Source: an uncultured SAR116 cluster alpha proteobacterium (GTDB lineage Bacteria > Pseudomonadota > Alphaproteobacteria > Puniceispirillales > Marisalimonadaceae). From it: DNA of 64,000 bases. The stretch lies in assembly GCA_902537945.1 (NCBI GenBank), contig CACBDG010000004.1:1-64000 (forward strand), read 5' to 3'. The position numbers and the translations under genes were made by a program. Each line of letters starts with the position of its first letter. The stretch's first letter is position 1. The notes under the pieces were generated by a model, which was not told where the DNA came from, did not search any database, and saw only the letters and a program-made list of their open reading frames with translations. Positions 3,347-26,281 of the stretch are shown piece after piece.

Positions 3347-3988
3347 ATGCTAACATGTGAAAATATTTCGTTTGATATTGACGGACAAAAATTATTTTCA
3401 AACATAAATTTAAATCTAAAATCTCAGAAGGACCTTTTGATAACTGGTCCTTCTGGAGTTGGTAAGACAACCTTACTTAGCATTTTATGTGGAATACAAA
3501 AACCAATAACTGGGAAAGTAATCTATAACAAAATTGACCTTTATAGTTTGACTGAAAGTAATGTAGATGAATTTAGAGGTAAAAATCTTGGTGTTGTTTT
3601 TCAAAATTTTAACTTAATAAATGCTTTCACTGTTAAACAAAATCTAGAAATAGCTGCAAACGCTATTGGAAAGAGTAGTTCAAATCTATATTTCGAACTT
3701 CTTGATAGAGTTGGATTAGCAGACAAGTCACATATTAAAGTTACAAATTTAAGCATTGGTGAAAAACAAAGACTTGCGGTGGCGCGTGCATTTGTCGGAG
3801 ATCCAAAATGGGTTTTTTGTGATGAACCAACTTCATCATTAGACGATAAAAATGCTGATATTATTGCTAATTTGATAAAAGATGAAAGCTTGCGTTGTAA
3901 AGCTTCACTGGTGCTTATAACACATGATAGTCGTATACAATCCTTAATAAAATTCTCTAAAATTTTAAAATTAGGAGATGAGTTATAA
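3347..3988 (+). CDS. ABC transporter ATP-binding protein, LolD/MacB type, in zinc operon
   Basis: This 213-residue ATPase has Walker A 'GPSGVGKTT' near residue 34, signature 'LSIGEKQRLAVARA', Walker B 'WVFCDEPTSSLD' and H-loop 'LITHD'. It belongs to the LolD/MacB/FtsE branch, which pairs with FtsX-like permeases and usually drives mechanical work in the envelope, not channel-type transport. It starts 9 bases after znuA and precedes a matching permease and a DUF3299 protein. An equivalent set (PA4064-PA4066) was reported, as I recall, as zinc-responsive in Pseudomonas aeruginosa. A role in periplasmic zinc handling is inferred from that and from sharing the znuA promoter. Confidence 0.9.
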   Translation: MLTCENISFDIDGQKLFSNINLNLKSQKDLLITGPSGVGKTTLLSILCGIQKPITGKVIYNKIDLYSLTESNVDEFRGKNLGVVFQNFNLINAFTVKQNLEIAANAIGKSSSNLYFELLDRVGLADKSHIKVTNLSIGEKQRLAVARAFVGDPKWVFCDEPTSSLDDKNADIIANLIKDESLRCKASLVLITHDSRIQSLIKFSKILKLGDEL

Positions 3989-20481: not shown

Positions 20482-21129
20482 TTAGTCCCATTCTATATTA
20501 AATTTAGTTACAATCTTTTCTATTTGTGAGGCTTTTAGCTCTATTGCATCTGTACCTCTTAAAATTAGAGCTAGTTTAGCAGTGGCCTCTAATTCTTCAA
20601 CAGCATTTACAGCAGATTCTAAATCTTTAGCTGAAACAACAGGACCGTGATTAGCAAGGAGGACAGCAGATCTCTTACCAGCCAGCCCTTTAATTGCATC
20701 ACCCATAGCTGGGTCTCCTGGCACAAAAAAAGGAAGTAATTTTACCTTTCCTAATAACCTAACGGAGTAAGGAGTATATGAGGGCAACACATTATCTTCA
20801 TTTATTTCAGGTATCATTGATAATGCTACTGAATAAGTTGAATGAAGATGCACAACTGCACCAGATTTCATACCTCTTGTTTCATAAAAAGCTTGGTGTA
20901 GTGGTAACTCTTTTGTTGGAGTAGTCGAACCAATAATTTCACCAGATTTAGTAACCTTGACTATTTGGTTTGGGTCAAGTCTACCAAAAGAAGATCCAGA
21001 AGGGGTAACCAAAATGTTATTATCATCCAAACGTACTGAAATATTTCCGGTTGAACCATGTGTTAAGCCTCTATCAAAAATAGAAGTAGCTAAAACACAT
21101 ATTTGCTCTCTTAATTTATTTTCATTCAT
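20482..21129 (-). CDS. otnC: Class II aldolase, 3-oxo-tetronate 4-phosphate decarboxylase-like (OtnC)
   Basis: The 215-residue class II aldolase/adducin protein has 'GLTHGSTGNISVRLDDNNILVTPSGSSFGRLDP', the metal His pair in 'VVHLHSTYSVALS', a third His in 'LLANHGPVVSAKDLESAV', and the catalytic acid in 'ELPLHQAFYE'. The close fit to OtnC and the adjacent OtnI gene suggest decarboxylation of 3-dehydro-tetronate 4-phosphate to dihydroxyacetone phosphate. The kinase that makes this substrate (OtnK, DUF1537) is not in the window. L-fuculose-phosphate aldolase is the main alternative. The gene lies 28 bases after the DUF2938 gene. Confidence 0.85.
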   Translation of the reverse strand: MNENKLREQICVLATSIFDRGLTHGSTGNISVRLDDNNILVTPSGSSFGRLDPNQIVKVTKSGEIIGSTTPTKELPLHQAFYETRGMKSGAVVHLHSTYSVALSMIPEINEDNVLPSYTPYSVRLLGKVKLLPFFVPGDPAMGDAIKGLAGKRSAVLLANHGPVVSAKDLESAVNAVEELEATAKLALILRGTDAIELKASQIEKIVTKFNIEWD

Positions 21130-21157
21130 TTTTTATACTCAATACGTATATTTTAAT

Positions 21158-21634
21158 TTAGTAACCAAATATCTGATAAAACCCACCGATAGGTGCACCT
21201 ATAGCAATATGACTTCCAACTGCTAAAGAACAAGCCATAAGTGGTGACGGTGTCTTTGTTCCTAATAAACCTTTACCTAAAGCTGGCATAAAAAAAAACC
21301 AAGGAACAATTACACTTATCAAACCAAAAATAATGCCATTCATAAGAGATGCACTACATATTTCATATTCTAATAAAATAAAAAAAAATACTGAATAAAT
21401 AATTGCAACGGAATAATGAACCATCCAGCCAATTATTAATTCATTTTTAATTGGATCTTCTTCATCGATAGTAGGATTATAAATTTTTCCTCTAAACATT
21501 ACTAATAAAAACCATCTTCCAACCACACCCCAATCAGAAGGATTTATGTCATATAATAATTTAAGTAGCCTCTGCCACATATCCATTGCAAGACAAGATA
21601 CAATTCCAATAATGACTATGTGAAATATTTCCAT
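21158..21634 (-). CDS. DUF2938 membrane protein
   Basis: The 158-residue protein has four predicted membrane helices and the DUF2938 signatures 'MDMWQRLLKLLYDI', 'DWGVVGRWFLLVM', 'IIGWMVHYSVAIIYSVFF', 'PALGKGLLGTKTPSP' and 'GSHIAIGAPIGGFYQ'. Function is unknown for the family. I start at ATG 21634, where GAGGAAGTTTG gives a good ribosome site; the track start is a TTG one codon earlier. It is the first gene of a leftward operon with the OtnC, OtnI, reductase and lactonase-like genes, and diverges from an SDR across a region with a palindrome. Confidence 0.88.
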   Translation of the reverse strand: MEIFHIVIIGIVSCLAMDMWQRLLKLLYDINPSDWGVVGRWFLLVMFRGKIYNPTIDEEDPIKNELIIGWMVHYSVAIIYSVFFFILLEYEICSASLMNGIIFGLISVIVPWFFFMPALGKGLLGTKTPSPLMACSLAVGSHIAIGAPIGGFYQIFGY

Positions 21635-21683
21635 CAAACTTCCTCTATTTTAAAAATTTTTCTAGCATTGGATAGTTGAACGA

Positions 21684-21707
21684 TATAAAACACTATAAGT
21701 GTTTATA
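21684..21707. promoter_or_regulatory. Palindromic operator candidate between DUF2938 operon and SDR gene
   Basis: AAACACT-ATA-AGTGTTT (21688-21704) is a perfect 7-base inverted repeat. TATA on both sides (with one extra A on the left) extends it to 10 paired bases. It lies between divergent genes, 50 bases left of the DUF2938 start and about 63 bases from the SDR start. Such a site would suit a dimeric repressor of the GntR, MarR or LacI kind. No such regulator is intact in the window. Confidence 0.4.
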
Positions 21708-21769
21708 TGAAATATATCTATTGTTAATATATTCTTATAATTCAACCAAATCAAATACAGGGGGTGTTT

Positions 21770-22504
21770 ATGGCTAATTTTAATGGACAAACTGCAGTTA
21801 TTACTGGTGGAGCTCAAGGGATTGGACTAGCAACTGCAAAAAGATTTATTAATGATGGCTGTGAAGTTATGATTTGGGATATTGATAAAAAGTTGGGTAT
21901 GGACGCTGCAAAAGAACTTAATTGCCATTTTTTAGAAGTTGATCAAACTGATAATAAAGTTGTAGAACAAGCTACGGCTGAAACTATTAACCAGCTAAAA
22001 AAAATTGACATATTAGTTTGTAGTGCAGGTATAGCAGGTCCGACCTTTTCAACATGGGATTATCCAGTTGAAGAGTGGTCAAAAGTTTTCAACGTAAATG
22101 TAAATGGTGTGTTTTATTGCAACAAATATGTTGTTAAGACTATGCGAGAAAACGGATATGGTAGAATTATTAATATAGCATCTATTGCCGGAAAAGAAGG
22201 TAACCCTAATGCTCCTGCTTACTCAGCATCAAAGGCTGCTGTTATTGGATTAACTAAATCTCTTGGAAAAGAAACGGCTGATCAAGATATTGCAGTTAAT
22301 TGTATTACTCCCGCAACGGCAAAAACAAGAATACTTGATCAAGTATCACAAGAATTTATTGATTATATGCTGTCTAAAATACCAAGAAAAAGATTCGTAA
22401 CCGTTGATGAGATTGCTTCTTTAATTACTTACTTAGGAAGTAGCGAGAATAGTTTTACTACAGCTGGTGTTTTTGATATTTCAGGAGGTAGAGCTACATA
22501 TTAA
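21770..22504 (+). CDS. Short-chain dehydrogenase, 2-keto-3-deoxy-rhamnonate/fuconate dehydrogenase-like
   Basis: The 244-residue SDR has 'AVITGGAQGIGLATAK' (cofactor loop), 'DILVCSAGIAG', catalytic Ser-Tyr-Lys in 'GRIINIASIAGKEGNPNAPAYSASKAAVIG', and the C-terminus 'FDISGGRATY'. That ending and 'GKEGNPNA' recall bacterial dehydrogenases of 2-keto-3-deoxy-L-rhamnonate or related sugar acids, from memory. ATG 21770 is chosen over the track start at 21764 because the G-rich ribosome site (AGGGGG) sits directly before it. A structured non-coding stretch follows its stop. Confidence 0.85.
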   Translation: MANFNGQTAVITGGAQGIGLATAKRFINDGCEVMIWDIDKKLGMDAAKELNCHFLEVDQTDNKVVEQATAETINQLKKIDILVCSAGIAGPTFSTWDYPVEEWSKVFNVNVNGVFYCNKYVVKTMRENGYGRIINIASIAGKEGNPNAPAYSASKAAVIGLTKSLGKETADQDIAVNCITPATAKTRILDQVSQEFIDYMLSKIPRKRFVTVDEIASLITYLGSSENSFTTAGVFDISGGRATY

Positions 22505-22505
22505 T

Positions 22506-22658
22506 GGTGAGGATTTTAAGGAGATCCTCTGCACCTATTAAACTAATCACTAGGGAGGAATGTATTAGTTTTGAGTACAATTAAACGGGGGAGTTTAATC
22601 AACACTTTGATTATGTGTCGAATCGTAGAATTAGTCATTATATGTTTCATTAATCAAA
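22506..22658. ncRNA. Candidate structured small RNA or 3' UTR element with serial hairpins (strand undecided)
   Basis: In the 230-base gap between convergent genes, four inverted repeats follow one another: GGTGAGGAT...ATCCTC-tg-CACC (22506-22535, loop TTTAAGGAG); AAACTAAT/ATTAGTTT (22540-22571, loop with AGGGAGGA); ATTAAAC/GTTTAAT (22580-22599, loop GGGGGA); TTTGATTA/TAATCAAA (22606-22658, 37-base loop). Read rightward, each of the first three loops carries GGA. Read leftward, the loops are CTCC / CCTCCC / TCCCCC, like the anti-Shine-Dalgarno loops of many alphaproteobacterial sRNAs. The stems are fully Watson-Crick, so strand cannot be told. TTGAGT (22571-22576) and TTTAAT (22594-22599), 17 bases apart, could be a rightward promoter. 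No U-tract terminator is seen. The rest of the gap (22659-22734) shows nothing clear. Confidence 0.5.
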
Positions 22659-22734
22659 AAACAAAGAATATATTTGCCAAAAATTTGAGCATAAAAAATT
22701 AGCCAAATTAGTAGGTGATTAATATTTGATCATT

Positions 22735-23337
22735 TTATATCTCTGAATTTAATTCCATTAAAGCGGAAAGGACAACAACTGCGAACAAAGCCAGGCCCAT
22801 TCCTCTATTTACCCAAATTTGTTTATTAACACCTAATGACCATTTCTTTAAACTTATTCCTAACCAAAGCCATAATAAATGTATTGGTATCCAAATAGAA
22901 TTAACAATAATAAATTTTACAATAATTTCAGTATTAAATGATGCCAGTCCAAGAGACAAAACTACAAACAAATGACCTTGCACAACATAAGCTTTAGGAT
23001 TAACAAATTGTAAAAAAATACCTTCATACAATCTAGGTGCTTTCAAATTCTGCTTAAAGCCAGTTTTGTTGTCAGACGTAGCTATTCGCCAAGATAGAAA
23101 AGATAAATAAGATAAAGAAAGAAGCAAGAAAGTAATTTCAACACCATCAATATCAAATAAAAATTGTTTGAAGCCTAAAACTACTAATAGTGCAACTCCA
23201 TTAGTTCCAAAAAATAAACCAATGAGATACATCATACCAACTTTCCAACCAAAGCCTGCACCAACACCAGCTAATGATAATACACCTGGGCCAGGAGTAA
23301 CCATCATTAAAAAACTAATAATTATATATGTAATCAT
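22735..23337 (-). CDS. LysE/RhtB family exporter
   Basis: The 200-residue membrane protein has about six hydrophobic segments. The N-terminal 'MVTPGPGVLSLAGVGAGFGWKVGMMYLIG' is the diagnostic LysE/RhtB motif, and 'LQFVNPKAYVVQGHLFVV' is the conserved middle segment. The family exports amino acids or small metabolites. Substrate cannot be told. It stands alone, leftward, with 83 bases to the next gene and with the structured region beyond its 3' end. Confidence 0.9.
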   Translation of the reverse strand: MITYIIISFLMMVTPGPGVLSLAGVGAGFGWKVGMMYLIGLFFGTNGVALLVVLGFKQFLFDIDGVEITFLLLSLSYLSFLSWRIATSDNKTGFKQNLKAPRLYEGIFLQFVNPKAYVVQGHLFVVLSLGLASFNTEIIVKFIIVNSIWIPIHLLWLWLGISLKKWSLGVNKQIWVNRGMGLALFAVVVLSALMELNSEI

Positions 23338-23420
23338 CTGAACTTGTAGAAGATTCTCTACACCTTGAACTTAATGAAAAATAACCTGTTAACCATACTA
23401 TGAATTATGTTAATGCAATA

Positions 23421-24833
23421 TTATAGGAAAAGTTTTCCTGGGTTCATTATTTTAAGAGGATCAAAAGCTTCTTTTACACTTTTCATAACATTTACAGCAT
23501 TACCTAACTCTTTAAGCATATATTTTCTTTTACCTTGGCCAACCCCATGTTCACCTGTGCATGTGCCATCCATTCTTATAGCTCTCTCAGATATTCTTAC
23601 TAAAAATTCATCTAACTTATCTAACTCAGTTTTGTTATTTTTATCAATTAAGAGTGCAACGTGAAAATTTCCATCTCCTGCGTGACTTACTATTGGACCT
23701 ATTAATTCATTTTGTTCCATATCCTCAATAGTTTCTGTAATACATTCCGATAATTTTGAAATAGGCACGCAGACATCCGTAGAATAAAGTTCTGCCTCTG
23801 GCCTTACAGCTCTACATGACCAATACGCATCATGCCTTGCTTTCCATAATTTATTTCTGTCCTCATTGTTAGAAGTCCATTCAAAATCTTTACCTCCAAA
23901 ATCAGATGATATCTCTCCAAATAATTCCGACTGTTCATCTACAGATGATTGACTTCCATGAAATTCTACCAATAATAATGGAGCTTCAGGAAGATTTGTT
24001 TTGGAATAATTATTAACAGCCTTTACCTGTGCTGTATCCATAAATTCTATTCTAGCAACCGGGATACCAGCTTGAATAGTCATTATAACCGCGTCAGTTG
24101 CATTTTTTACTGTTGGGAAACTTACTCTTCCGCCAGCTACAACTTCTGGAATACCATAGAGTTTGAGAGTAATTTCTGTCGTTATGCCCAAAGTCCCTTC
24201 AGAACCAACCATTAGCCTTGTTAAGTCATATCCAGCGGAACTTTTCCTTGCCTTATTTGCTGTTTTAATTATCTGACCGTCTGGAGTAACAACTTCCAAA
24301 GCTATGACATTGTCTTTCATTGTACCATAACGAACCGCATTTGTTCCTGAGGCTCGTGTAGCAGTCATTCCACCTATTGAGGCATTTGCCCCAGGATCAA
24401 TTGGAAAAAATAAACCTGTGTCTCTCAGGTATGTATTAAGCTGCTCTCTCGTTACACCTGGTTGAACAACAACTAGAAGGTCATCTTGATATACTTTCAA
24501 TATTTTGTTCATATTATTCATATCAATTGATATTCCACCAAAAGGTGCATTGAGATGCCCTTCGAAGGAAGAACCAACACCAAATGGTATAATTGGGCAC
24601 TTATATTCTTTACAAATATTTACAACTTTTTGAACATCCTCTTTTGTTTCAACAAATACAACACCATTTGGTAATTCAGATTCGTGTATTGTCATTGTAT
24701 GAGTGTGTTGTTCTAAAATACTCTGACTATCTGAAAATTGCTGTCCAAATTCTTCTTTTAACTTTTTTACACATAACTTGATACTTACAGGATCATAATT
24801 ATCTGAAGACCAAATTGAAGTATTACCATCCAT
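23421..24833 (-). CDS. FAD-linked D-2-hydroxyacid dehydrogenase, GlcD/DLD type (paralogue 1)
   Basis: The 470-residue protein has an FAD-binding PCMH domain ('PNGVVFVETKEDVQKVVNICKEYKCPIIPFGVGSSFEGH', 'VVVQPGVTREQLN', 'GANASIGGMTATRASGTNAVRYGTMKDNV', 'GSEGTLGI') and a C-terminal FAD-oxidase domain ('GDGNFHVALLID', 'CTGEHGVGQGKRKYM', 'MNPGKLF'). These oxidise D-lactate, glycolate or other D-2-hydroxyacids, passing electrons to the respiratory chain. It is about three-quarters identical by eye to the gene just upstream. Differences cluster near the active site ('YWSCRAVRPEAELYST' and 'SHAGDGNFHVALL'), which suggests a changed substrate. Confidence 0.92.
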   Translation of the reverse strand: MDGNTSIWSSDNYDPVSIKLCVKKLKEEFGQQFSDSQSILEQHTHTMTIHESELPNGVVFVETKEDVQKVVNICKEYKCPIIPFGVGSSFEGHLNAPFGGISIDMNNMNKILKVYQDDLLVVVQPGVTREQLNTYLRDTGLFFPIDPGANASIGGMTATRASGTNAVRYGTMKDNVIALEVVTPDGQIIKTANKARKSSAGYDLTRLMVGSEGTLGITTEITLKLYGIPEVVAGGRVSFPTVKNATDAVIMTIQAGIPVARIEFMDTAQVKAVNNYSKTNLPEAPLLLVEFHGSQSSVDEQSELFGEISSDFGGKDFEWTSNNEDRNKLWKARHDAYWSCRAVRPEAELYSTDVCVPISKLSECITETIEDMEQNELIGPIVSHAGDGNFHVALLIDKNNKTELDKLDEFLVRISERAIRMDGTCTGEHGVGQGKRKYMLKELGNAVNVMKSVKEAFDPLKIMNPGKLFL

Positions 24834-24865
24834 ATTTAATGCCTCTAAAATATTCGATTTTATTT

Positions 24866-26281
24866 CTACAAAATTTTTCCAGGATTCATAATACCTTTGG
24901 GGTCTAATTCTTCCTTAATTAATTTCATAAAATTTACCGCAGAACCTAACTCCTCAATTAAATACTGTTTTTTACCTTGCCCTACTCCATGTTCACCTGT
25001 ACATGTGCCATCCATACTAATTGCTCTATGAGCTAATCTTTCTAAGAAACCGTTCGCAACATCAATTTCATTCTGGTCTTTGGGATCAATCATAAGTTGA
25101 ACATGAAAATTGCCGTCTCCAACATGACCAACAATAGGACCAAATAATTTATTTTGCTCCATATCTTCAATGGTTTCTGTAATGCATTCCGAGAGTCTTG
25201 AAATAGGTACACACACGTCTGTTGCAATGTAATCAGCCTCTGGTCTACATGCTTTTACAGCATAATAAACATCATGCCTAGCTTTCCATAATTTATTTCT
25301 TTCTTTAATATTAGCGTTCCACTCAAAATTATTCCCTCCAAAATCTTTAGAAATCTCGTTAAATAATTCTGACTGCTCTTTAACAGAAGATTTGCTTCCA
25401 TGAAACTCTAAAAGCAACAAAGGTGATTCTGGTAAACTCAATTTAGAATAATTATTAACTGCTTTAACTTGTGCAATGTCTAATAGTTCAATTCTAGCTA
25501 CTGGTATACCAGCTTGTATCGTCATGATAACTGCATCAGTTGCATCTTTAACAGAAGGGAACGTGCACCTGCCAGCTCCAATTTCCTCAGGTATGCCATA
25601 AAGTTTAAGAGTAATTTCAGTAATTACACCCAAAGTTCCTTCAGAACCAACAATTAATCTTGTTAAATCATATCCAGCTGAACTTTTTCTTGCTCTACTG
25701 GCAGTTTTTATTATCTCACCATTTGGCATAACAACTTCAAGAGATAAAACATTGTCTTTCATTGTACCATAACGAACTGCATTTGTTCCAGAGGCTCTAG
25801 TAGACGTCATTCCACCAATTGAAGCATTCGCGCCAGGATCAATAGGAAAAAATAAACCTGTATCTCTTAGATATGTATTAAGTTGTTCTCTTGTTACACC
25901 AGGTTGTACTACAACAGTAGAATCTTCAGGGTGAACTTCTATAATATTATTGAGATTGTTCATATCTATTGAAATCCCACCAAAATTGGCATTTAGGTGC
26001 CCCTCCAGAGAAGAACCTGCACCAAAGGGGATAATTGGGCAACCATGTTCGTGACAAATTTTTACAGTTTTTTGAACATCTTCTTTACTATATGCAAAAA
26101 CAACACCATCAGGCAATTCGGGTGTATGAACTGTAGTTGTGCTAGTATGTTGTTCACGAACTGATTTAGATATTGAAAATTGTTGACCAAATTCTTTTTT
26201 CAATGCCTCTATAGCTTTTTCAACATTATAATCAAATTTATTATAAAATGAGTTGTTCTTTATATCTAAGATTGTCACCAA
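24866..26281 (-). CDS. FAD-linked D-2-hydroxyacid dehydrogenase, GlcD/DLD type (paralogue 2)
   Basis: The 471-residue paralogue of the next gene has the same two domains: 'IIPFGAGSSLEGH', 'GANASIGGMTSTRASGTNAVRYGTMKDNV' and 'GHVGDGNFHVQLMID', ending 'GIMNPGKIL'. 'GHVGDGNFH' and 'VYYAVKACRPEADYIATDVCVP' match the more common DLD form better than the other copy, so this may be the ancestral function (D-lactate-type oxidation). Start is TTG 26281 or GTG 26278, with GAGG upstream. The 33-base gap to the second copy implies co-transcription. Two close copies side by side mark a tandem duplication. Confidence 0.92.
   Translation of the reverse strand: MVTILDIKNNSFYNKFDYNVEKAIEALKKEFGQQFSISKSVREQHTSTTTVHTPELPDGVVFAYSKEDVQKTVKICHEHGCPIIPFGAGSSLEGHLNANFGGISIDMNNLNNIIEVHPEDSTVVVQPGVTREQLNTYLRDTGLFFPIDPGANASIGGMTSTRASGTNAVRYGTMKDNVLSLEVVMPNGEIIKTASRARKSSAGYDLTRLIVGSEGTLGVITEITLKLYGIPEEIGAGRCTFPSVKDATDAVIMTIQAGIPVARIELLDIAQVKAVNNYSKLSLPESPLLLLEFHGSKSSVKEQSELFNEISKDFGGNNFEWNANIKERNKLWKARHDVYYAVKACRPEADYIATDVCVPISRLSECITETIEDMEQNKLFGPIVGHVGDGNFHVQLMIDPKDQNEIDVANGFLERLAHRAISMDGTCTGEHGVGQGKKQYLIEELGSAVNFMKLIKEELDPKGIMNPGKIL

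Follow-up and report, generated by a model that had tools for sequence, protein, structure and literature searches.

Between two convergent genes of the window (the whole 64,000-nt stretch of DNA that was analysed, from an uncultured ocean bacterium of the SAR116 group and with a GC content of 32%) lies a series of inverted repeats, and the question is whether they belong to an RNA, on which strand it would be encoded, and what it would do. The sequence-only reading had described four serial hairpins that fill this gap. On re-reading of the window, the loop sequences given there were confirmed, and three perfect-stem hairpins (HP-a, HP-b and HP-c) were found to be conserved in relatives. The fourth repeat shares bases with the third stem, is missing in relatives, and probably arose by chance. 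The repeats were also found to occupy only the first ~100 bp of the ~230 bp gap rather than the whole of it. The genes and the repeats, as read on the plus strand where they are hairpins, are as follows.

21764..22504, plus strand: neighbouring SDR oxidoreductase gene, convergent with the LysE-like gene
22509-22529, plus strand: HP-a, perfect stem GAGGAT/ATCCTC, loop TTTAAGGAG
22540-22571, plus strand: HP-b, perfect stem AAACTAAT/ATTAGTTT, loop containing CTAGGGAGGAAT
22580-22599, plus strand: HP-c, perfect stem ATTAAAC/GTTTAAT, loop GGGGGA
22596..22613: fourth hairpin of the sequence-only reading, TAATCAA/TTGATTA, overlapping HP-c and outside the feature
22735..23337, minus strand: neighbouring LysE-like exporter gene, below Pfam's cut-off, upstream on the strand of the proposed RNA

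Farther along, two tandem, mutually similar genes on the minus strand (23421-26281) resemble, by eye, FAD-binding GlcD-type oxidases.

In a DNA search of 61 genomes, 28 members of the genus (AAA536-G10 type SAR116, 40 genomes), among them the window's own genome, carried the element at this junction. A covariance model was built from these 28 loci. It matched strongly in 32 of the 136 genomes of the order; 30 of these are among the 40 of the genus, and two belong to a sister genus. A weak match in one more genus genome, G034 (E 0.03, lacking the HP-a loop), was excluded from the counts. One copy was present per genome, except in a single draft with two on different contigs, and no paralogue was detected, each genome giving a single significant match and the next match in the window having an E of 2.9. 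When public genomes were scanned for an exact pattern, most of the matching records belonged to alphaproteobacteria labelled SAR116 cluster or SCGC AAA536. Among the 28 relatives, mean pairwise identity was 0.85 over the RNA, compared with 0.60 for the spacer next to it. It reached 0.92-0.97 for the loops and for HP-a, placing the loops among the most conserved parts and above the stems. A protein-coding reading was rejected, with stops breaking all six frames and loops differing by 1-nt indels between species.

The stems showed compensatory change. In the alignment of 32 sequences, which was fitted to the covariance model and hence leans towards it, 94% of cells were paired, and 32 cells, spread over 12 of the 27 pairs, had changed on both sides, far more than in any shuffle or slid control. 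An unfitted MAFFT alignment gave eight pairs and 15 cells with changes on both sides, which exceeded every shuffle. Covariation in homologous gaps, the absence of which had been named beforehand as a refutation, is thus present. Changes on both sides affected five of the eight pairs of HP-c and seven of the ten pairs of HP-b, and in the sister genus the HP-b stem was rebuilt as GACAAUAAU/AUUAUUGUC around a CU-rich loop. For HP-a, which does not vary, covariation is uninformative. Over 22506-22535 its inner stem is invariant and its loop nearly so in the 32 sequences, while the other stems covary; pairing by itself would not demand such invariance. An additional helix around HP-b (UGUAC/GGUGCA) fitted some species only and was omitted from the structure.

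G-U pairs in homologues had been suggested as an indicator of the transcribed strand. Read on the minus strand, the alignment contained 23 G-U cells against 6 A-C cells, numbers that a plus-strand reading would swap, and the RNA was therefore assigned to the minus strand. The G-U cells were spread over 11 pairs and 17 sequences, which are related and hence not independent. The minus strand of 22480-22680 also beat its shuffles in folding (z -2.75, two of 200 shuffles as good), whereas the plus strand of the same 201 nt was no better than shuffles (z +0.32). The folding of the minus strand and the excess of RNA identity over that of the spacer bear out the earlier statement that the stems are unlikely to be chance. 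The conserved structure, the strand and the loop sequences are supported, and our confidence in structure and strand is high. With covariance model R1, the minus-strand match spans 22503-22607 and scores 114.8 bits; the features on this strand are as follows.

22610..22638, minus strand: promoter-like pair ATGACT-17-CATAAT, about 7 nt upstream of the putative RNA start
22506..22603, minus strand: proposed small RNA of about 98 nt, its putative 5' end placed from the promoter-like pair
22580..22599, minus strand: HP-c, first on the RNA, stem AUUAAAC/GUUUAAU, loop UCCCCC
22540..22571, minus strand: HP-b, second on the RNA, stem AAACUAAU/AUUAGUUU, loop with AUUCCUCCCUAG
22506..22535, minus strand: HP-a, third on the RNA, GGU(GCA)GAGGAU-CUCCUUAAA-AUCCUCACC, near-invariant at 32 loci

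From 5' to 3' the order is therefore promoter-like pair, HP-c, HP-b and HP-a, and the loops carry the anti-Shine-Dalgarno (anti-SD) words UCCCCC, UUCCUCCC and CUCCUUAAA, all three complementary to Shine-Dalgarno sequences. We estimate a probability of roughly 70% that the minus strand at ~22603-22506 encodes a trans-acting regulatory RNA of ~100 nt that covers ribosome-binding sites, with a TRAP solute-binding protein as the best candidate target. Such an RNA would fold into three hairpins whose loops expose CU-rich anti-SD sequences; pairing of the loops with ribosome-binding sites would keep a small number of mRNAs from being translated, and a perfect 13-nt duplex formed by loop b would repress the DctP-type TRAP solute-binding protein. 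We infer transcription, the RNA ends, translational repression and the targets; we hold the anti-SD mechanism with moderate confidence and the list of targets with low to moderate confidence. The anti-SD small RNA on the minus strand that the sequence-only reading had offered as one option is backed by covariation, the asymmetry between G-U and A-C cells, strand-specific folding and the promoter-like pair.

The -35-like element (ATGACT or ACGACT) was retained at the 18 closest loci (L001-L018), and the -10-like element (TATAAA, CATAAT and similar) was poor at L013, L014, L017 and L018; the pair is recognisable in close species and not clear in other clades. No U-run followed any stem on either strand, and no intrinsic terminator was found in 21000-24000. 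On the minus strand, the lack of a U-rich terminator 3' of HP-a counts against the proposed small RNA. A second conserved AT-rich block (22667-22693; minus strand TATGCTCAAATTTTTGGCAAATATATTC) is located between the LysE-like gene and the RNA and may be another promoter or the 3' end of the LysE-like gene.

Three other explanations of the locus were weighed. The hairpins could be a 3'-UTR element of the LysE-like mRNA, either a small RNA processed from the 3' UTR or a structure by which the mRNA is protected or terminated. They follow the LysE-like stop codon on the same strand at a distance of 135 nt, with no terminator in between and with a conserved gene-proximal part of the spacer; however, the promoter-like pair intervenes in close species, the U-run is absent, and a simple end structure would have no need of invariant CU-rich loops. 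We regard this origin as unlikely, though it deserves more weight than the two that follow. The hairpins might instead form the 3' end of the SDR transcript or a two-way terminator of the convergent genes, with no action in trans. The hairpins begin two bases past the SDR stop codon, and among the genus genomes tested the RNA was present only where a close SDR gene exists: in the ten genus genomes lacking a strong RNA match, nine had no close copy of the SDR gene and one had a 55% relative. Outside the genus, however, the SDR orthologues of G061 and G076 are followed by a different sequence and not by the RNA. It follows that the RNA travels with the locus and that the SDR gene can stand alone. 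Loops better conserved than stems, a G-U asymmetry that points to the minus strand and the absence of a T-run after the stems further make an SDR end structure improbable. The pair of weak terminators, which the sequence-only reading had kept as a fallback, is likewise unlikely, as neither strand has a U-run after a stem.

A plus-strand RNA whose GGA loops sequester a CsrA/RsmA-type protein had been the other suggestion. The plus-strand loops do bear GGA, the serial GGA-loop hairpins resemble those of CsrB/RsmZ sponges when read on this strand, and the short RNA region by itself folds with similar energy on both strands. Nevertheless, the changes within the stems give more G-U than A-C pairs when the minus strand is read, and the 201-nt plus strand does not fold better than its shuffles. 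In addition, neither CsrA (PF02599) nor Hfq (PF17209) was found in the 40 genus genomes, five of which are at least 90% complete and some 99-100%; CsrA was also absent from the window's genome, and the same search detects Hfq in Caulobacter. A Csr-type sponge is therefore very improbable, and this part of the earlier reading was abandoned.

The small regulatory RNA on the minus strand was compared with known families. Rfam gave nothing relevant, either at the gathering cut-off or at E <= 10; the conserved small RNA is absent from Rfam 15 and is most likely an anti-SD regulator acting in trans. The closest known design is the ar14 family, that is, NfeR1 of Sinorhizobium meliloti (Rfam RF02344; also SmelA075, cuckoo RNAs), whose members of about 115-123 nt consist of three consecutive hairpins with variable stems and an anti-SD sequence in every loop and are Hfq-independent (PMC10746234, PMC8844928, PMC3927594). 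NfeR1 pairs at the ribosome site and represses periplasmic binding proteins of transporters (PMC10746234, PMC8844928, PMC3927594). The SAR116 RNA likewise has three serial hairpins, each with a CU-rich anti-SD sequence in its loop, and its predicted 13-nt pairing is to the site of a TRAP solute-binding protein. That a search of the 40 genus genomes found no Hfq gene would fit Hfq-independent action. By analogy it may work similarly, as three Hfq-free anti-SD hairpins aimed at a binding protein, and the regulatory sign, repression, rests on the mechanistic precedent of NfeR1/ar14 (PMC10746234). However, ar14 loops all share an identical CCUCCUCCC motif (PMC10746234, PMC3927594), whereas those of the SAR116 RNA are three different sequences, none of them CCUCCUCCC, and the RF02344 covariance model had no match at E <= 10 in the genome or in the region. 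The SAR116 RNA was therefore not placed in ar14. It differs further in being single copy, against several ar14 copies in S. meliloti (PMC7143759), in having an HP-a invariant in stem and loop, and in lacking a terminator U-run. CU-rich anti-SD motifs also occur in AbcR1/AbcR2 (ar15), which carry two of them, unpaired, bind Hfq, and have predicted targets enriched in transporter mRNAs (PMC7143759); unlike AbcR, the SAR116 RNA had no Rfam match, and no Hfq gene was found in its genus.

Candidate targets were sought against 400 kb of the window's genome with 380 called genes. The best match involves the following features.

22549..22561, minus strand: RNA stretch AUUCCUCCCUAGU, 13 nt, perfect complement of the ribosome-binding site of the TRAP solute-binding protein
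L178:2526-3581, minus strand: DctP-type TRAP solute-binding-protein gene, start codon at 3581, ribosome site ACUAGGGAGGAAU
L178:1262-9478: TRAP locus with genes for the solute-binding protein, DctQ, epimerase-type proteins, a divergent DapA-family lyase and others

The pairing of loop b with the solute-binding-protein site is ungapped over 13 nt (-23.3 kcal/mol) and ranked 1 of 380 genes, the runners-up reaching 8 nt by length and -17.1 kcal/mol by energy. A separate genus-wide search for AGGGAGGAA-N3-9-ATG mostly marked one gene per genome, that of the TRAP solute-binding protein. Within the same RNA clade, 14 species could be tested; 12 of them keep the full 13-nt pairing, and the other two pair over 12 and 10 nt. 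The protein, whose PDB relatives include a keto-acid binder, shows 99-100% identity between many of these species, and its ribosome site is nearly invariant. With control loops that kept the UUCCUCCC core between random flanks, 13 nt was reached in 23 of 2000 trials on the 380 genes, that is, a chance probability of about 0.01 for this sample and weaker support genome-wide. The target site is identical in genus genomes without the RNA (G005, G009, G014, G015, G016, G032 and G068), and no loop-target covariation was found, loop b variants of other clades pairing over just 5-8 nt. Because of these three points the TRAP solute-binding protein, the best candidate, is a likely rather than a proven target.

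Weaker complementarity links the other loops to the same locus. DctQ, with a GGGGGA site, ranked 5 of 380 for loop c, and the DapA-family gene pairs with loop a over 11-12 nt in eight genomes and over just 6 in the window's own; these matches hint that several members of the locus may be hit. The TRAP locus was enriched in good matches (p 0.007, or 0.023 when the solute-binding protein is left out), a test made after the match was seen and suggestive only. A tentative extension is a three-address RNA, in which each loop would hold its own anti-SD word for its own ribosome site in one uptake and catabolism locus, Hfq-free: loop b for the solute-binding protein, loop c for the GGGGGA site of DctQ, and loop a for the UUUAAGGAGA site of the DapA-family lyase. 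The start of the SDR gene (21764-21790) has a GGGGG-type ribosome site; of the 18 closest loci, 11 show CAGGGGGTGTTTATG and 15 show GGGGG. This site ranked 2 of 380 for loop c, and the SDR gene is a possible local target of that loop. Other recurrent matches were too unspecific to claim, namely those of loop a to a 377-aa protein, a 78-aa protein and a protein that we take to be L25-like, and those of loop c, where there is no open frame.

In the full-text collection of papers searched, small RNAs of SAR116 bacteria were not reported. If the minus-strand reading is true, the RNA would represent a new family of anti-SD RNAs, with a TRAP transporter as its probable target, in a genus whose genomes yielded no Hfq. 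It would show an ar14-like design arising also in a lineage without ar14's defining loop motif, and would make post-transcriptional control of nutrient uptake testable in ocean surface bacteria.
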